In this document: positions 2,920 through 62,932 of the stretch, piece after piece
How the letters are laid out: the number at the start of each line of letters is the position of its first letter
Position numbering within the stretch: the stretch's first letter is position 1
NCBI GenBank assembly: GCA_022826905.1
Contig: JAJDUA010000040.1
Location: 1 to 64,000, forward strand
DNA: 64,000 nucleotides
Source of the DNA: Candidatus Dadabacteria bacterium
GTDB taxonomy: Bacteria > Desulfobacterota_D > UBA1144 > Nemesobacterales > Nemesobacteraceae
Direction: 5' to 3'
The notes under the pieces: model-generated
What the model was told of the DNA's origin: nothing
The model's input: only the letters and a program-made list of their open reading frames with translations
Database searches by the model: none
Position numbers and translations under genes: made by a program

Positions 2920-4611
2920 ATGGCTTATAGAGTACTCGCCCGCAAGTGGCGCCCCCAGACTTTCGAAGACCTGATAGGTCAGGAATTCCCCGCCGTTACC
3001 CTAAGAAACTCAATCGAGTCAGGGAAAATAGCCCACGCGCTTCTTTTCGCCGGACCGAGAGGTACGGGAAAGACATCCACGGCGAGAATCGTCGCCAAGG
3101 CCGTAAACTGCGAGACAAAAGACGGGGACAAGTACCCCTGCTCAACCGACCAGTGCTCAATCTGCAAGGGAATATCAGAGGGAAAATCCCTTGACGTGCA
3201 GGAAATCGATGCCGCGTCGCACACGGGCGTGGCCGACGTTCGCGAAATCATAGAGAGCGTTAAATACTCCCCGGCTTCCGCGAGAAAAAAAGTCTACATA
3301 ATCGACGAAGTGCACATGCTCTCCCAGTCGGCCTTTAACGCCCTTCTTAAAATAATGGAGGAGCCCCCGGAGCACGCGATTTTCATACTGGCGACCACGG
3401 AAGCCCACAAGGTTCCCCCGACCATCATGTCCCGCTGCCAGAGATACGACTTCAAGAAAATACCCGTCGAGAAAATAAAGGAATCTCTTGAGAAGATAAC
3501 GAAGGCGGAGGGGATAAAGATCGACACGGAAACCCTCTACCTGATCGCAAGGGAATCTGAGGGAAGCATGAGGGACTCGCTGAGCCTGCTTGACCAGCTG
3601 ACCGTGTCCTTTGAAGACAGAATAAACCACAAGGATGTGATAAACCTGCTAGGCATACCGGATAACGAGTCGCTTAGAAGCATCCTAAGAGCCGTTTTCG
3701 CCAAGGAACCGGCAAAATGCGTGGAGCTCGTGCGAAACGCCGCGTCAAAGGGGATAAGCCCGAGGAGAATGGCTCAGGACATCATCTACATGATGAGGAA
3801 CCTGCTCTACCTCAAGATCTGCGGCAAGGATTTTGTTTCTGACCTCTCCCCTGATGAAAAAGACGAACTTTCAGAACTGGTGAAAAATGAATCCACGGAA
3901 ACCGTGGAGCTCCTTTTTAACGTAATAATCGATGGAGGAGAGAAAATACGCAGTTCCTTTTACCCGGAAATAGTGCTTGAGCTTGCACTTGTAAAAATGA
4001 GCACCGTCGGAAAAGTCGAAAAGATAGACGACATTCTGAAAAGGCTTGAGAAAATCTCGCCTCAGGGTTCCGGCACGGAGAGAACGCCGGGGGCCCCGGG
4101 AGGGCAGAGGAAAACCGCAGGGCGCAGCCCCGAGAAACGGGAAGACAAACCCGAGGAGAAAGAGAGCAAGGATGTTGAAGAAAAAGACACGGGCAAAAAC
4201 GAAAAACCGGTAAAGGAAACGCCTGCATCTGGGGGCGGGGAACAAGTCTCGGGCGGCGGTCCCGAGAAGCAGGAGGTCGTAGACTTTGTGTACGGCAAAG
4301 ACAAGTTCTTAGCAAGAAAGCTTGCCCAGGCACACCTCCTTGAAGTAAACGGAAACCTAGTAAGCATAAAGTTTCTTAAAAACGGCATAAATCATGAAAA
4401 AGAGCTTAAAAAATCAAGCAAATTAAGAGAGATACTAAAGGAAATGCTCGGCGTTGAGAGAGTAAGGCTCGATATCGATACCATAAACGACGAGGGAATT
4501 AACGGGACCAGCAGAGCCTCGAGAAAGCCTGATCCCGCGGAAGACGAAATAGTGAACTACGCAATCCGGCAGTTTGACGCCAGCGTGATAAAAAGAAAAA
4601 ATTTAAGCTAG
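2920..4611 (+). CDS. dnaX: DNA polymerase III subunits gamma/tau
   Basis: This 563-residue protein is the clamp-loader ATPase of the replisome. The Walker A motif GPRGTGKTS lies at about residues 45-53. The zinc-binding cysteine cluster occurs between residues 64 and 82, followed by Walker B (VYIIDEVHML) and the sensor motif MEEPPEHAIFILATTE. A low-complexity Lys/Glu/Gly linker runs from about 385 to 450, ahead of a C-terminal domain that resembles the tau polymerase-binding region. The gene starts only 10 bases past the SRP RNA and has no visible Shine-Dalgarno site, so it may depend on read-through and processing of the RNA transcript. It is followed by ybaB and recR on the same strand. Confidence 0.95.
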   Translation: MAYRVLARKWRPQTFEDLIGQEFPAVTLRNSIESGKIAHALLFAGPRGTGKTSTARIVAKAVNCETKDGDKYPCSTDQCSICKGISEGKSLDVQEIDAASHTGVADVREIIESVKYSPASARKKVYIIDEVHMLSQSAFNALLKIMEEPPEHAIFILATTEAHKVPPTIMSRCQRYDFKKIPVEKIKESLEKITKAEGIKIDTETLYLIARESEGSMRDSLSLLDQLTVSFEDRINHKDVINLLGIPDNESLRSILRAVFAKEPAKCVELVRNAASKGISPRRMAQDIIYMMRNLLYLKICGKDFVSDLSPDEKDELSELVKNESTETVELLFNVIIDGGEKIRSSFYPEIVLELALVKMSTVGKVEKIDDILKRLEKISPQGSGTERTPGAPGGQRKTAGRSPEKREDKPEEKESKDVEEKDTGKNEKPVKETPASGGGEQVSGGGPEKQEVVDFVYGKDKFLARKLAQAHLLEVNGNLVSIKFLKNGINHEKELKKSSKLREILKEMLGVERVRLDIDTINDEGINGTSRASRKPDPAEDEIVNYAIRQFDASVIKRKNLS

Positions 4612-4621
4612 GAGTGAAAAA

Positions 4622-4945
4622 ATGAAATTAGGCGGAAACATGAAAAACATCATGAAGCAGATGGGGAAGATGAAGGAGCAGATGGAGCGCCTTCAGAACG
4701 AAGCCGGGGAAAAAACCGTGGAAGCTTCTTCCGGGGGCGGGATGGTCACGGTTACCGCAAAAGCAAAGGGAGAGATAGTATCAATAGCCATAGAGCCCGA
4801 AATAATAAGCGAAACCGACATTGAGATGCTCCAGGACCTGGTGACCGCCGCCGTAAACGAGGCCCTTTACAAGGGACAGGAACTTATGAAAGACGAGGTC
4901 TCTCGCTTCACCGCCGGCATGGGACTTCCGCCAGGGCTTATCTGA
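4622..4945 (+). CDS. ybaB: Nucleoid-associated protein, YbaB/EbfC family
   Basis: The 107-residue protein has the YbaB pattern. A Met/Gln/Lys-rich helix comes first (MKNIMKQMGKMKEQMERLQN). Then come the GGGMVTVTAKAKGEI strand region and a C-terminal helix ending AGMGLPPG. The family forms DNA-binding dimers that bridge or protect the nucleoid. An AGGAGTG site just upstream supports the start at 4622, with a second possible ATG seven codons on. It lies between dnaX and recR, its usual place, with 10 bp before and 1 bp after, so the three are surely one operon. Confidence 0.95.
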   Translation: MKLGGNMKNIMKQMGKMKEQMERLQNEAGEKTVEASSGGGMVTVTAKAKGEIVSIAIEPEIISETDIEMLQDLVTAAVNEALYKGQELMKDEVSRFTAGMGLPPGLI

Positions 4946-54540: not shown

Positions 54541-54738
54541 TTTAACCTCCAAAAATCGATGCGTGGCGGTAATGTTACTCAAACAGCTAAGATACTCAAC
54601 ATGAGGTATGGGATTAGGGGCCGTCGGCCCAGGCTATTGTCAGATTTCTGCAGGAAGTAAAATCCCGCCACGCCGAAACCAAAGACCTCTACAGACCCGA
54701 TTACATCATTGACACGGTACTTTCTCATAAGGTAAGTT

Positions 54739-54759
54739 AGATGATAATTTTTCTCATTT
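54739..54759 (+). promoter_or_regulatory. Fur/Zur-like operator, copy 1
   Basis: AGATGATAATTTTTCTCATTT is a 21-bp imperfect inverted repeat whose arms, ATGATAA and TTCTCAT, resemble Fur-superfamily boxes. It lies 11 bases before the small protein ATG. The second copy at 56820 is more symmetric. Given the zinc genes that follow, Zur is the likely regulator. It might also influence the divergent trpS gene. Confidence 0.55.
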
Positions 54760-54769
54760 ACCCATGCAG

Positions 54770-55054
54770 ATGAACAAAACATTTTCCTTATTGCTTACAA
54801 TCGCCTTTCTGGGGGCGCAGATGCTTTTCTTTGCCCATGCGGCCGAGTATGGTTCCCGGGAACATGAGCATGAGGGAGTTTCCTGCGAAATCTGCCTGAG
54901 CGCCAAGTATCAGGACTTCTCAAGTCCCGGCGCCACGAGTGAAGTCCGTGTTCTTCACCGTGCACGGCACGTCCCGCAGCCACCCGCTGACGTTATCGTC
55001 GTTCGGAACACTTGCGAAGCGGGAATTACCCGCGGACCTCCCCTTTCATCCTAA
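54770..55054 (+). CDS. Small secreted His/Cys metal-binding protein, zinc locus copy 1
   Basis: The 94-residue protein has a signal peptide (MNKTFSLLLTIAFLGAQMLF, then FAHA). The mature part has a short metal-site motif, REHEHEGVSCEICLSAKYQD, near residues 30-49: His-x-His, Cys-x-x-Cys. It continues with a basic linker, VRVLHRARHVPQPPAD. This is the style of DUF2946-like proteins. It is nearly identical to the copy at 56851. Its place under a Fur/Zur-like box, before a His-rich barrel, suggests a periplasmic zinc chaperone or sensor. The ATG at 54770 matches the start of copy 2; there is no Shine-Dalgarno site. Confidence 0.75.
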   Translation: MNKTFSLLLTIAFLGAQMLFFAHAAEYGSREHEHEGVSCEICLSAKYQDFSSPGATSEVRVLHRARHVPQPPADVIVVRNTCEAGITRGPPLSS

Positions 55055-55132
55055 AGCTGTAAACAGATTTTTTATTCCCCGCGCATACAGTGCGGGCAGC
55101 GGAATTTTCTTTTCAAACTTAAGGAGGAAAAA

Positions 55133-56641
55133 ATGAATATATTGCGTTTCGCGGTAATAACTGCGTTTTTTGCCGTCTTGCCGTTTTCTCATATCCCCGC
55201 TTTCGCCGCTTCTGATCAGCAGATAGAAGCTTTAAAGAAAGAAATACAGGAAATGAGGTCAGAATATGAGAACCGGATTTTAAAGATGGAGGAAAAACTT
55301 GCCGAGATGAAGACTGAGGCAATCGTGGATAGAACGAAAACGACTTACTCAAAGAGCAGAGACAGCGTCTACCCCGGCAGAGCCATTTACAACAGCACCC
55401 TTAATCCTTCAATCGGAGCGGTACTGGGCGGACGCTTCGCCGCATTCTCTTCTGACGAGGGCGAAATTCCAGGGTTTGTCCTGGGACACGAAGGAGAACG
55501 CGGAGCGGAAGGAATTTCCCTCGGGGAAACCGAACTTAATCTTTCAACAAGCGTTGACGATAAATTCTACGGCCACATAACCACGGCCCTTGCAGACCAT
55601 GGAGACGGGGTTGAGATAGAGCTTGAGGAGGCATACGTGGAAACCCTTCCAGGTCTCGGGCTTCCAACGGGAACGACGATAAGGATGGGACGCGCGTTCT
55701 GGACTTTTGGATACCTGAACGAGCATCACGCCCACGCTGACGATTTCGCCGACCGTTCCCTGCCTTACAGGGTGTACCTCGACAAGGGCTTTAATGATAC
55801 CGGAGCGCAGATTTCATACGTGCTTCCAACAGATCTCTATGTTGAGGCGGGAGGCGGTATTTTCCGCGGAGACGATTTCCCGTTTGCGGGAGCTGAGGGT
55901 AGCGACATAAACTCATTCAGCGCCTTCCTGCGGGTAGGCGGCGACATAGGAAATAATTCATCCTGGAGAATCGGAGGTTATTTCCTTGACGGAGAGGCAA
56001 GCGGTCGCGCCGGCAGACACGGACATGGACACGAAGACGAGCATGCCCACATGGATGATCACGACGATGACCACATGGATGATCATGATGATGACCACAT
56101 GGATGATCATGATGATGACCACGCGGATGAACACATGGATGACCACGATGATGAACACGCAGAGGAACATGGACATGAGGAGTTCTTCAGCGCCGGCATG
56201 TTTACGGGCGACACGAGGCTTTACTCGGTTGATTTTCGCTACGTTTGGGCCCCCACTGGAAACATCCGCCAAAAAGAGGTGCTTCTCCAGGGTGAGTATT
56301 TCTGGCGTGAAGAAGAAGGCTACTACACTCTTGAGGAAGGAGGCGAGGTCCACGAAGAGTACCTTGACGGAGGAAGCCACGGCTGGTATGCACAGGGGGT
56401 TTTCAAGTTCTCGCCGAAATGGAGAATCGGAACCCGCTATTCCCAGATCTACTCTCCTAAGGATTCAGGGATAGATCACGACCCCTACGCGGTAGCGGTC
56501 ATGGGAGACTGGTCAAACAGCGAATTCTCGCGCATACGTCTTCAGTACAACTACGAGAAACTGGGAGAGGACCTGAGCGACAACCAGATCCTGCTCCAGT
56601 ACATAATGAGCATAGGCGCACACGCCGCGCATAAATACTAA
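55133..56641 (+). CDS. Zinc-locus outer-membrane beta-barrel with His/Asp-rich repeat loop
   Basis: The 502-residue protein has a signal peptide identical over 27 residues to that of ZnuA at 57212. A coiled coil follows (QIEALKKEIQEMRSEYENRI, about residues 29-48), then a porin-like barrel (LGETELNLSTSVDDKFYGHI near 136). An exposed loop near residues 295-350 is built of HMDDHDDD units and more His/Asp/Glu, with about 20 His in 55 residues. The last strands end in ILLQYIMSIGAHAAHKY. It probably captures zinc at the surface and passes it inward, as ZnuD does by a different fold. An AGGAGG site and the shared leader precede it. Two terminators follow. Confidence 0.85.
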   Translation: MNILRFAVITAFFAVLPFSHIPAFAASDQQIEALKKEIQEMRSEYENRILKMEEKLAEMKTEAIVDRTKTTYSKSRDSVYPGRAIYNSTLNPSIGAVLGGRFAAFSSDEGEIPGFVLGHEGERGAEGISLGETELNLSTSVDDKFYGHITTALADHGDGVEIELEEAYVETLPGLGLPTGTTIRMGRAFWTFGYLNEHHAHADDFADRSLPYRVYLDKGFNDTGAQISYVLPTDLYVEAGGGIFRGDDFPFAGAEGSDINSFSAFLRVGGDIGNNSSWRIGGYFLDGEASGRAGRHGHGHEDEHAHMDDHDDDHMDDHDDDHMDDHDDDHADEHMDDHDDEHAEEHGHEEFFSAGMFTGDTRLYSVDFRYVWAPTGNIRQKEVLLQGEYFWREEEGYYTLEEGGEVHEEYLDGGSHGWYAQGVFKFSPKWRIGTRYSQIYSPKDSGIDHDPYAVAVMGDWSNSEFSRIRLQYNYEKLGEDLSDNQILLQYIMSIGAHAAHKY

Positions 56642-56649
56642 GAGCAACC

Positions 56650-56724
56650 GTAGCGTGAAACGCTACCTAGTTTTTCTCTCTACCCTCATGCCGGGGCTGC
56701 TTTTCGCGGCCCCGGCATATTTTT
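56650..56724 (+). terminator. Tandem intrinsic terminators after the zinc barrel gene
   Basis: The first has a 6-bp stem, GTAGCG and CGCTAC (56650-56666), and T5 at 56671-56675. The second has a perfect 10-bp stem, ATGCCGGGGC and GCCCCGGCAT (56688-56718), and T5 at 56720-56724. They end the first zinc unit and separate it from the second leader cassette. Confidence 0.85.
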
Positions 56725-56819
56725 CGGCAGCCGACCCAGGGAATCGGTGGAACTGACGGCCCGAAGTACATACACAAGTACATACATCATTGACACCGTA
56801 CTTTTTCGTGTGGTAGGCT

Positions 56820-56840
56820 AAATGATAATATTTCTCATTT
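56820..56840 (+). promoter_or_regulatory. Fur/Zur-like operator, copy 2
   Basis: AAATGATAATATTTCTCATTT is a 21-bp inverted repeat: AAATGA at one end and TCATTT at the other, with an AT-rich centre. It lies 10 bases before the small protein ATG. The fit to Fur-superfamily boxes and the adjoining zinc uptake genes point to Zur. Confidence 0.6.
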
Positions 56841-56850
56841 ACCCATACAG

Positions 56851-57135
56851 ATGAGCAGAACATTTTCCTTATCGCTTACAATCGCCTTTTTGGGGGCGCA
56901 GATGCTTTTCTTTGCCCATGCGGCCGAGTGCAGTTCCCGGGAACACGAGCATGAGGGAATTGCCTGCGAGATATGCCTGAGCGCCAAGTATCAGGACTTC
57001 TCAAGTCCCGGCGCCACGAGTGAAGCCCGTGTTCTTCACCGCGCACGGCACGTCCCGCAGCCACTCGCTGACGCTGTCGTCGTTCGGGACACTTGCGAAG
57101 CGGGGATTACCCGCGGACCTCCCATCCCATCCTGA
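56851..57135 (+). CDS. Small secreted His/Cys metal-binding protein, zinc locus copy 2
   Basis: The 94-residue protein is a near twin of the one at 54770: signal peptide MSRTFSLSLTIAFLGAQMLF, then REHEHEGIACEICLSAKYQD and VVRDTCEAGITRGPPIPS. Differences are scattered and conservative, and the His-x-His and Cys-x-x-Cys motif is fixed. The mature part has an extra Cys near its start (AECSS). It precedes znuA by 76 bp and is surely co-transcribed with it. Confidence 0.75.
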   Translation: MSRTFSLSLTIAFLGAQMLFFAHAAECSSREHEHEGIACEICLSAKYQDFSSPGATSEARVLHRARHVPQPLADAVVVRDTCEAGITRGPPIPS

Positions 57136-57211
57136 TCTGTAAAAAGACTTTTTATTCCCCGCACATACGTGCGGGCAGCGGAATTTTCTTTTCAAACTTA
57201 AGGAGGAAAAA

Positions 57212-58123
57212 ATGAATATATTGCGTTTCGCGGTAATAACTGCGTTTTTTGCCGTCTTGCCGTTTTCTCATATCCCCGCTTTCGCCGCTTCTTACCAGAA
57301 GGTAAAAGTATTTGCCTGCGAACCGGAATGGGCGGCACTGGCCCAAGAAATCGGCGGTGACAAGGTGGAAGCGTTTTCAGCCACCTCGGCCACACAGAAT
57401 CCACACTACATAAGGGCACGCCCAAGCCTGATATCCAAAGTGCGCAAAGCCGATCTGCTGATCTGCTCGGGCGCAAGTCTTGAGGTAGGCTGGCTTCCGG
57501 TTCTGCTCAAGAAGGCAAGTTCTGATCTCCAGCCCGGCTCCCCCGGTTACCTTATGGCTGCAAATCTGGTCACCATGCTCGAAGTACCAGTTGTGGTCGA
57601 CCGCAGCATGGGAGATATACATCCGGAAGGCAATCCCCACTTGCACCTGAATCCGTACAACCTGATAATTGTAGGCGAAGTGCTTGCCGATCGCCTTTCG
57701 GAAATCGACCCTGGGACCGCCTCTTCTTACAAAAACCGATTCCAGGATTTTTCATCACGCATGCAAAAGGCCATCTCCCGGTGGGAATCCGAGGCCGCCG
57801 AGCTTAAAGGGAAGCAGGTGGTGGTTCATCACAAATCGTTTAGTTATCTGATTGACTGGCTCGGAATGAAAGGAGTGGGGGCGCTTGAACCGAAACCCGG
57901 AATTCCCCCCACAGCTTCTCACCTGAAGAATCTGCTGCAGCAGTTAAGAAACAGCCCGGCGGATGTGATTATCCGTACCCCTTACGATCCGGCTGGCGCG
58001 AGTGAATGGTTCTCGGAGAAAACCGGGACAAGGGCAGTCGTGCTTCCTTACACCATTGGCGGTGACAGTAAGAGCGGCGACCTGTTCGCGCTGTTTGACA
58101 GGATTATAGCTTTGTTAAAATAG
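57212..58123 (+). CDS. znuA: Zinc ABC transporter substrate-binding protein ZnuA type
   Basis: The 303-residue protein has the signal peptide MNILRFAVITAFFAVLPFSH and an A-1 type (cluster 9) binding fold. Typical parts are KVFACEPEWAALAQEIGGDK near residues 32-51, NPHYIRARPSLISKVRKADL near 68 with a metal His, GNPHLHLNPYNLIIVGEVLA near 138 with two His, and VVHHKSFSYLIDWLGMKGVG near 205 with another. It lacks the long His-rich loop of E. coli ZnuA; the separate small His/Cys protein may stand in for it. znuB follows after 7 bp. Confidence 0.92.
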   Translation: MNILRFAVITAFFAVLPFSHIPAFAASYQKVKVFACEPEWAALAQEIGGDKVEAFSATSATQNPHYIRARPSLISKVRKADLLICSGASLEVGWLPVLLKKASSDLQPGSPGYLMAANLVTMLEVPVVVDRSMGDIHPEGNPHLHLNPYNLIIVGEVLADRLSEIDPGTASSYKNRFQDFSSRMQKAISRWESEAAELKGKQVVVHHKSFSYLIDWLGMKGVGALEPKPGIPPTASHLKNLLQQLRNSPADVIIRTPYDPAGASEWFSEKTGTRAVVLPYTIGGDSKSGDLFALFDRIIALLK

Positions 58124-58130
58124 ACATATA

Positions 58131-58892
58131 ATGTTAAGTGGTGAACTTCTGGAAATCATCGGGCCGGCAGTGGCTGCCGGCCTCATGATTGCGCTTACCC
58201 ACGCTCCCTTGGGCATCGAGGTGCTGCGCCGCGGCATCATCTTTATTGATCTTGCGGTGGCGCAGATTGCGGGACTCGGGCTTGTGGTCGGCAACATGTT
58301 TATCCATGATCCTTCTCCGTTGCTGATCCAGTTCATGGCTCTTAGCTGCGCGGTCGCGGCAGGGCTGTTTTTCCGCAAGGTGGAAACGGCGATGCCCGAG
58401 CGACAGGAAGCGGTCATAGGGTGCACTTTCGTACTTGCCGCATCGCTAGCGCTTCTGCTGCTGGCCGACCACCCCCACGGCGGAGAAGAGGTAAAGCACC
58501 TGCTTTCGGGACAGATGCTGTTTGTGACATGGACAGACGTGGCGAAACACTCGCCCATTTACGCGTTGATACTGCTGGTCTGGTTCTTCAGACCCGAGGT
58601 GCGGAACAACATTGGATTTTACCTGCTCTTCGCCCTTGCCATCACTTCATCGGTTCAGCTGGTCGGCGTCTATGTAGTCTTTGCGAGCCTCATACTGCCG
58701 GCTCTGGCCGCCGTACGCGTTAGACAGCCTCATCTTGTCGCATGGCTCTGCGGGGTGGTGGCGCTTCTGTCAGGCATCGCCTTCGCCGTAGCGTTCGATA
58801 TGCCCGCCGGACCGATTATTATCCTGTCATACACCGCGACGGCCCTGACTATACGAGGGGTCAGGATGGCAAACCGGGATCAGAAAACTTAG
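58131..58892 (+). CDS. znuB: Zinc ABC transporter permease ZnuB type
   Basis: The 253-residue protein has about seven helices of the ABC-3 family: LTHAPLGIEVLRRGIIFIDL near residues 22-41, AVAQIAGLGLVVGNMFIHDP near 42, the LLSGQMLFVTW stretch near 122, and VGVYVVFASLILPALAAVRV near 178. Metal is handed to it by ZnuA. The ATP-hydrolysing ZnuC is missing from this locus, which is unusual, so an ATPase from elsewhere must serve. The gene ends 89 bp before the AT-rich flavoprotein pair. Confidence 0.9.
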   Translation: MLSGELLEIIGPAVAAGLMIALTHAPLGIEVLRRGIIFIDLAVAQIAGLGLVVGNMFIHDPSPLLIQFMALSCAVAAGLFFRKVETAMPERQEAVIGCTFVLAASLALLLLADHPHGGEEVKHLLSGQMLFVTWTDVAKHSPIYALILLVWFFRPEVRNNIGFYLLFALAITSSVQLVGVYVVFASLILPALAAVRVRQPHLVAWLCGVVALLSGIAFAVAFDMPAGPIIILSYTATALTIRGVRMANRDQKT

Positions 58893-61900: not shown

Positions 61901-62932
61901 TCAAAGAAAAGCATTGAAGAGAAACCCGAAAAAAAACACTTGGGGAACAGCCACTACAGGGAGGAGCAGGGCCGTTTTTCTGCCTATGTTGGTCCAGAGA
62001 AGCCCGATCTCCGTATAGTCGGTCACAACCCCCGCCATCAAAAAGACGAATGGATTTCCGAATGCCTGAACCTTGTCGTAGATCTCAAACGCAATAACCG
62101 AACTTCCCTCGCTGCAGACCTCGATCACAGTGGCTCCCACAAGGGTGAGCAAAAGACCGCCGGCGTCCGGACCCAGATACCGCATGAAAAATTCCCCGGG
62201 CACGTATACGTCTACCAGGACCGCCGCTATAAGCCCGATTATAAGCCACCACAGAACCATGTTGGAAAGACTTAGACTTCCCCTGAGGACCCCCGGAACA
62301 CTTTCCCTCATGGAAAAACTTTTAATTTTCTCCCACTCGTATCCTTCCCCCGAGCCAGTGAAGTCGTTTTTCTCCACATAGCCGCCCCGCTCAAGTGCCT
62401 CGAAGATAAGGCCGGTAACAACAGCGATAAATCCCGCCGTGATTATGAACAGAACACCTTTCCACCCGAAAAAGCTTATTAGAAGAATGGTTACGGGAAA
62501 ATTAGCCCAGGGAGAAGCGAGCAGAAATGTTATCACAGCCGGGATGCTCGCCCCTTTTTTGTAGATCTGGATCGCTATGGCAAGTATTCCGTGGGAACAG
62601 GAAGACATTAGAAAACCTCCTGCAAGCGCGTAGAGAAGCGATGACTTGCCCGTTTTGCCAAGATATCTGTATATAAACCCCTGGGGAACGAAGTAATCTA
62701 TTGCCCCTCCCAGAAGAAAACCCAAAGCAAGCGGAATGGCGAGCAGTCGGAGATAGCCCAGAAGAGAAGCATTAAGGGCGGAGAGAGGCGGCAGGAAGGA
62801 AACGGCAATCAGGCACAGAAGCAACGCGAGAGAGATTTTAAGGTTTCGGCTGACTTGAAGCGGTTCCCCGGGAGAAGGAACATGGCAACATGAAGCCTGC
62901 TCGGTATCCGTGTTAGTTCCCGTATTTATCAC
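61901..62932 (-). CDS. UPF0718/YraQ-type permease (DUF318)
   Basis: The 343-residue protein has about eight helices and the DUF318 motifs: LGYLRLLAIPLALGFLLGGA near residues 54-73, LYALAGGFLMSSCSHGILAI near 100-119, ITFLLASPWANFPVTILLIS near 134-153, and VTDYTEIGLLWTNIG near 305. The conserved Cys in SSCSHG is present. Family members export metals or metalloids such as arsenic in some hosts, or act in thiol export; none is proved here. The start is GTG. A perfect 14-bp palindrome lies 38 bp upstream, in the divergent gap. Confidence 0.85.
   Translation of the reverse strand: MINTGTNTDTEQASCCHVPSPGEPLQVSRNLKISLALLLCLIAVSFLPPLSALNASLLGYLRLLAIPLALGFLLGGAIDYFVPQGFIYRYLGKTGKSSLLYALAGGFLMSSCSHGILAIAIQIYKKGASIPAVITFLLASPWANFPVTILLISFFGWKGVLFIITAGFIAVVTGLIFEALERGGYVEKNDFTGSGEGYEWEKIKSFSMRESVPGVLRGSLSLSNMVLWWLIIGLIAAVLVDVYVPGEFFMRYLGPDAGGLLLTLVGATVIEVCSEGSSVIAFEIYDKVQAFGNPFVFLMAGVVTDYTEIGLLWTNIGRKTALLLPVVAVPQVFFFGFLFNAFL

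Follow-up and report, generated by a model that had tools for sequence, protein, structure and literature searches.

A candidate arrest-peptide leader of porin-znuA zinc uptake operons and its duplication onto znuA in Dadabacteria

The stretch of DNA studied here (the window; positions 1 to 64,000 of contig JAJDUA010000040.1, 64,000 nucleotides) belongs to the 1.78-Mb draft genome, in 69 contigs, of a Candidatus Dadabacteria bacterium (GCA_022826905.1). On its forward strand it carries genes for an outer-membrane porin (55133-56641), the ATP-binding cassette (ABC) substrate-binding protein ZnuA (57212-58123) and the ABC-3 permease ZnuB (58131-58892; PF00950, E 7e-19), and both the porin gene and znuA are preceded by a copy of the same block. 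The two copies, A (54702-55213) and B (56783-57292), align end to end with 92% identity over 512 bp, and three repeat families (D2, D3 and D5) mark the same two segments. The last 124 bp are identical (55090-55213 and 57169-57292) and are followed by zero further matching bases; the identity ends exactly after codon 27 of both the porin and the ZnuA signal peptides. A duplication of about 510 bp with an identical end and a sharp limit at the signal-peptide boundary had been proposed from the window alone (the original prediction), and the alignment bears out both. We suggest, with a probability of roughly three in four and on the basis of sequence comparison, that the block is a leader for zinc uptake that contains an arrest upstream open reading frame (uORF), that it is ancestral to the porin-znuA-znuB operon, and that it was duplicated onto znuA with later exchange between the copies.

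Each block holds the same series of elements, which agrees with the parts named in the original prediction (box, small HxHEG...CxxC protein, hairpin, ribosome site and 27-residue signal peptide). In copy A these are a TTGACA read from the sequence as the presumed -35 hexamer (54709-54714), an operator-like 21-bp near-palindrome (54739-54759; AGATGATAATTTTTCTCATTT), the candidate arrest uORF encoding a 96-residue secreted protein with a signal peptide, HxHEG..CxxC and RGPP (54764-55054; the ATG at 54770 is an alternative start), a hairpin between the uORF and the porin gene (55077-55096), and, within AAGGAGG, the porin Shine-Dalgarno (SD) sequence GGAGG (55123-55127), followed by the 27 codons of the porin signal peptide region (55133-55213). 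The corresponding elements of copy B are the presumed -35 hexamer TTGACA, likewise read from the sequence (56790-56795), the near-palindromic box (56820-56840), the candidate arrest uORF encoding 94 residues (56851-57135), a hairpin between the uORF and znuA (57157-57175), the GGAGG of znuA (57202-57206) and a signal peptide region (57212-57292) identical to that of the porin. The RGPP codons, CGC GGA CCT CCC in copy A, lie at 55031-55042 and 57112-57123. The two cargoes were also assigned correctly at the outset, to an outer-membrane barrel behind copy A, for which we find a porin-type fold match, and to ZnuA behind copy B (PF01297). What goes beyond the original prediction is the RGPP motif, the complementarity to the SD sequence, the remains of an old ZnuA signal peptide, and the finding of uORF-porin-znuA far outside the genus.

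The small protein was compared among the 22 copies found in 14 genomes of the genus (that of the window and 13 relatives). All 22 have a signal peptide, most have HxHxG, and CxxC follows the HxHxG position; RGPP is present in 22/22, at a spacing from CxxC of exactly 45 residues, and in 20 of them it is followed by three residues and a stop codon. The two remaining copies (copy B of G010 and copy A of G012) have lost the nearby stop and carry tails of 18 and 25 residues after RGPP, so that constraint bears on RGPP rather than on the end of the protein. RAPP-type motifs are known to cause ribosome arrest, in which the two prolines occupy the ribosomal P and A sites, and RGPP gave the most robust arrest among the variants tested (PMC12992588). 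In the copper uORF protein CruR of Bordetella pertussis (bp2923; DUF2946) the distance from CxxC to RAPP is 45 residues and RAPP likewise lies three residues before the end (PMC9426467). As in CruR, the uORF copies thus have, close to the C-terminus, a RAPP-like motif some 45 residues after CxxC, and the exported small open reading frame (ORF) stands directly ahead of the porin gene or znuA at the head of a metal-related operon.

The same arrangement is found outside Dadabacteria. We examined 80 loci with the closest relatives of ZnuA, picked irrespective of any uORF, from organisms that include alpha-, beta- and gammaproteobacteria, Desulfobulbaceae and Dadabacteria. A porin homologue lies upstream of znuA at 69/69 loci having at least 2.3 kb of upstream sequence. 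At about 43 of the 62 of these loci that lie outside Dadabacteria, the porin gene is directly preceded by a small ORF that closes with R/Q-A/G/S-PP and a short tail and has a suitably spaced Cys (e.g. in Methylophaga aminisulfidivorans and Thiohalobacter thiocyanaticus), and RDPP or otherwise variant forms were found at five more. Among 50 aligned uORFs (two of them from the window) R, P and P are invariant and H25 and C41 are present in at least 90%, while the mature domain is barely conserved across phyla. Since RxPP is the sole invariant part, the small protein is best read as a regulatory uORF of the CruR/CutF kind, on which the ribosome would stall. The original prediction had given it the role of a chaperone, one that would handle zinc in the periplasm and be produced along with each cargo, the cassette having been copied for equal dosage and export. 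The signal peptide, the His and Cys ligands and the position in the operon would suit such a protein, but we consider this role highly improbable given that only the C-terminal motif is invariant across phyla and that, as described below, the last codons fit the SD sequence that follows them in the same locus, for which a chaperone would have no need.

The cargo bears on what the nascent chain might sense. RAPP-like arrest peptides ahead of sec and yidC genes (SecM, ApdA, ApdP and others) monitor protein export (PMC10987492), and the signal peptides present in all uORFs would allow the same here, with translocation pulling the stall free. The near-invariant His and Cys of the mature part, the fixed distance between the Cys and RxPP, and the fact that metal uptake is the cargo at every locus argue against such an export monitor, which we regard as unlikely.

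Evidence for how an arrest could act on the next gene comes from the codons between RGPP and the stop. In Dadabacteria these hold CCTCC, often TCCTCCT, complementary to the downstream AAGGAGGA; in copy A of the window, the CCTCC of the RGPP codons is paired with the GGAGG of the porin gene in the predicted fold. In predicted folds of the 22 Dadabacteria copies the SD sequence is mostly paired (mean unpaired probability 0.10), and when the footprint of a stalled ribosome is masked the value becomes 0.33, with an increase in 17 of the 22. A ribosome arrested at RxPP would cover the segment from RxPP to the stop, because RAPP arrest places the prolines in the P and A sites, and such coverage is what a switch in which arrest frees the SD sequence would need.

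At the 44 loci outside Dadabacteria that were compared with synonymous recodings, the pairing of the RxPP-to-stop segment with its own SD sequence is stronger than in the recoded versions (mean rank 0.16, Wilcoxon p 1.7e-8). Moreover, when SD regions were swapped among 45 loci, one of them from Dadabacteria, pairing was -11.2 kcal/mol with the own SD region versus -8.1 kcal/mol with those of other loci, a value reached in 0 of 20,000 permutations (z -10). Two control segments, one taken 15 codons upstream and one immediately past the stop, have no preference for their own SD sequence (p 0.41 and 0.99). The complementarity is thus specific to each locus, e.g. CCTGTTCTG with CAGAACAGG in L100 and CCACCTTAA with TTAAGGTGG in L117, and exceeds both synonymous and swapped controls, as would be expected for an RNA stem that hides the downstream SD sequence in the manner of CutF. 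Anti-SD tetramers are also enriched (29 seen, 15 expected), but this is not decisive since control pyrimidine tetramers are enriched too, and the comparison of own with swapped SD regions replaced that test. Outside Dadabacteria, CCT is not significantly preferred as the first Pro codon (10 versus 6.6 expected). The generally pyrimidine-rich RxPP-stop region, which the control tetramers reflect, would also suit transcription termination by Rho, as proposed for CruR (PMC9426467), as the main route by which the arrest uORF acts. Against this stand the specificity for the SD sequence of the same locus and the short distance between uORF and cargo, mostly <100 nt, so that termination rather than SD hiding appears rather unlikely as the principal mechanism.

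Zinc is suggested as the metal by the proteins encoded behind the leader. ZnuA matches PF01297 (E 9e-39), and the best NCBIfam model is that of the zinc protein AztC, with a score below the model cut-off. In the alignment around VVHHKSFSYL it has His as the third metal ligand where a manganese-binding relative has Glu; His rather than Glu at this position is characteristic of zinc-type substrate-binding proteins. The porin has no Pfam family above the cut-off. Its AlphaFold2 model (mean predicted local distance difference test score, pLDDT, 80.7) has a porin-like fold, with OprP as the best Foldseek match (E 1.4e-12), and the protein has an N-terminal coiled coil, conserved His residues, including those of NEHHxHADDF, and a His/Asp-rich loop. 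This loop (MDDHDDDH...) is encoded by a 12-bp tandem repeat at 56019-56174, which is missing or shorter in relatives with a single copy of the block, and the porin match splits there. The near-palindrome (AAATGATAATATTTCTCATTT) has, at up to three mismatches, no sites in the genome other than those in the two blocks. The genome encodes two Fur-family proteins, and the box may be a Zur site. Like zinc uptake operons with ZnuA or AztC, the operon has a zinc-type binding protein and an ABC-3 permease. It differs from them in having no adjacent ATPase gene, in including a porin gene and in being led by a predicted arrest uORF. Within 3.2 kb downstream of znuA an ABC ATPase gene was found at 0 of 58 porin-znuA-znuB loci; an ATPase signature is present in only 6 of the 57 longer loci, in all cases on the other strand. 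About 3 kb downstream of the operon, the window carries a gene for an ArsP-type permease on the minus strand (61901-62932; PF03773, E 5e-32).

Within the genus, the block was found in 13/13 relatives searched. Eight of the 14 genomes, including that of the window, have two copies in the same order, five have the porin-side copy only (G001, G004, G005, G007 and G008), and in G013 the contig stops before znuA so that copy B cannot be assessed. The original prediction had named an assembly artefact as a possible source of the identity; this is excluded because the two-copy layout recurs across independent assemblies. Among 101 genomes searched outside the genus, the sole match to the block itself is a trivial one of 31 bp. 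Candidates for a third copy in G007 and G008 were rejected, one being a degenerate fragment and the other a chance match. The degenerate uORF fragment of G008 (HEHEGTTCEVC...) lies elsewhere in its genome, upstream of a haem-oxygenase-like gene (L146, approximately 4400-4680, minus strand). On a second contig of G005 (L135, 1971-2482), part of a uORF is joined to part of znuB beside trpS, either a rearrangement or a binning mixture.

The five single-copy genomes suggest how the second copy arose. In these, znuA follows close behind the porin gene and has its own signal peptide (MKRLLTFLSILLPGLLFVAPAFSFA in G008), and the signal peptide region that ZnuA of the window shares with the porin is absent. 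Remains of the old ZnuA leader are present between the porin gene and block B in all eight two-copy genomes. In the window this fossil of the former znuA start (56642-56759) includes a 33-codon ORF from GTG 56655, MKRYLVFLSTLMPGLLFAAPAYFSAADPGNRWN, which begins MKRYLVFLSTLMPGLLFAAPAYFSAAD and has its stop at 56754-56756, and it matches the znuA 5' ends of single-copy relatives (blastn E down to 1e-12). The matches are stronger in G006 and G009 (E down to 1e-38), where the remnant also covers codons of mature ZnuA (tblastn, residues 25 to approximately 50). Ancestrally, therefore, the leader stood ahead of the porin gene only, and it was later duplicated before znuA. The simplest path would be a tandem duplication that reached into znuA, after which a deletion would have joined the second copy of the porin leader in-frame to mature ZnuA. 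Before the duplication znuA was a downstream gene of the porin operon; afterwards it had its own promoter, its own predicted arrest switch and the signal peptide of the porin.

The single-copy relatives and the fossil thus support the earlier proposal of a copied module, comprising promoter, small ORF, untranslated region and secretion signal, that became attached to another cargo. Equal export of the two cargoes, which had been part of that proposal, does not follow: the two signal peptides differ in G006, G010 and G012, and hence identical export is not required. The signal peptide was probably copied along because it is located just downstream of the control region.

Whether the copies have since exchanged sequence was judged mainly from phylogenies. 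The porin and znuA+znuB trees agree on three groups, namely {G000, G011, G002, G003} and {G006, G009, G010, G012} (with G013 added in the porin tree), both with copy B where this can be assessed, and {G001, G007, G008, G005}, all without copy B. The tree of the blocks conflicts with both: the A copies of the {G000, G011, G002, G003} clade and of G012 group among B copies, and a single clade of B copies is rejected (approximately unbiased test, p-AU 0.005), i.e. the copies cannot be separated into orthologous clades. The leaders of the B copies of G000 and G011 share substitutions with the A copies in their own clade and, together with the grouping of A among B copies, this means that exchange went in both directions. 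The 124-bp identity is its latest trace. A plain recent duplication in the lineage, with no exchange afterwards, would also yield high identity within the window's genome, but it is most improbable, because two separate clades within the genus have both copies and the shared fossil and because the B copies do not form one clade.

Mean uORF identity is 0.88 between B orthologues and 0.83 between the copies within a genome, and exchange has therefore been patchy. The gene conversion considered in the original prediction thus holds in that exchange has made the copies alike in places; they are not always closest within a genome, as the proposed check of likeness within and between genomes had put in question. 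The tree test carries the weight here since a longest-identical-run test for conversion also reached p<0.05 for 21% of the control pairs drawn from different genomes.

Several observations weigh against the reading of the leader as a zinc-linked arrest switch. The small proteins of the window have no family match among Pfam and NCBIfam profiles and, in this respect unlike CruR, no match to DUF2946 (PF11162), none at E<=1, although 10 of the 50 aligned uORFs match this family at E<=0.1 (best 1.7e-4). Approximately one quarter of the loci outside Dadabacteria have no such uORF by the patterns used, and upstream of the uORFs outside Dadabacteria the Zur-box is not enriched (8 seen, 6 expected). 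Masking the ribosome footprint shifts the predicted access to the SD sequence little in several copies, and the pairing in the window copies comprises 5 bp only (-9.1 kcal/mol, compared with approximately -12.5 kcal/mol in most relatives). The segments with this weak pairing are 55031-55054 and 57112-57135; as both window copies are affected, the switch may be looser there.

Taking these points into account, we propose the following mechanism. A promoter with a repressor-type operator, possibly under Zur control, would produce an mRNA that starts with a small exported protein, which while still attached to the ribosome could bind metal through H-x-H..C(xxC). At low levels of the metal, which is most likely zinc, the ribosome would stall on RGPP, and its footprint would cover the RGPP-to-stop codons that are otherwise paired with the downstream SD sequence; the latter would then be exposed, and the porin gene (copy A) or znuA (copy B) would be translated. 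When the metal is plentiful, binding would release the stall, the SD sequence would be hidden again and uptake would fall. The leader is widespread and, for the porin-znuA-znuB operon, ancestral. A single Dadabacteria lineage duplicated it between the porin gene and znuA, probably by tandem duplication into znuA and then deletion, and later two-way exchange made parts of the copies alike.

This proposal combines features of known systems. As in CruR, a small exported uORF opens an operon for metal uptake that also encodes an outer-membrane protein, the layout of CxxC, 45 residues, a RAPP-type motif and three final residues is the same, and uptake is expected to be on when the metal is scarce (PMC9426467). 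CruR, in contrast, is linked to copper and a TonB-dependent transporter and not to a porin-znuA zinc operon, and it acts via Rho termination, whereas the SD complementarity described here points to exposure of the SD sequence (PMC9426467). In CutF of the Rhodobacter capsulatus cutFOG operon the distance is similar to that in CruR, and an RNA stem conceals the SD sequence of the following gene (PMC9973294). CutF shares with the present uORFs the exported nascent sensor, the Pro-rich C-terminal motif and the stem (predicted here) over the SD sequence of the next gene, but its motif and cargo are different and it switches a copper oxidase on with copper, where we expect uptake to be on when the metal is scarce (PMC9973294). 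SecM, ApdA, ApdP and similar peptides likewise control the next gene through an exported uORF with a RAPP-like arrest motif at its C-terminus; unlike the present uORFs, they precede sec/yidC genes, monitor export and have no metal ligands in their design (PMC10987492). The families described in the papers examined are linked to copper (CruR and CutF), to copper and TonB, or possibly to nickel or cobalt from gene context. We found no zinc uptake operon with an arrest peptide or DUF2946 in the literature, supplementary tables and most subscription papers being outside the search. Gene-context surveys that rely on Pfam neighbours may have missed the porin because it has no Pfam family above the cut-off.

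In the accessible literature, metal sensing by a nascent protein has been shown for copper only (CruR and CutF). We lean, by a modest degree, towards the wider view that the leader represents a broad, undescribed class of zinc-responsive nascent-chain sensors on the porin-znuA operon in several phyla, and that in Dadabacteria it became a portable cassette that captured a second gene together with a secretion signal and was partly homogenised by gene conversion. If such a conserved class linked to zinc is real, zinc uptake in many bacteria would gain a further, post-transcriptional level of control, and the unannotated small ORFs that precede these porins would be accounted for. In the Dadabacteria case such a leader has moved as one piece to a new gene and the signal peptide it displaced can still be recognised, which illustrates how a regulatory uORF can spread.

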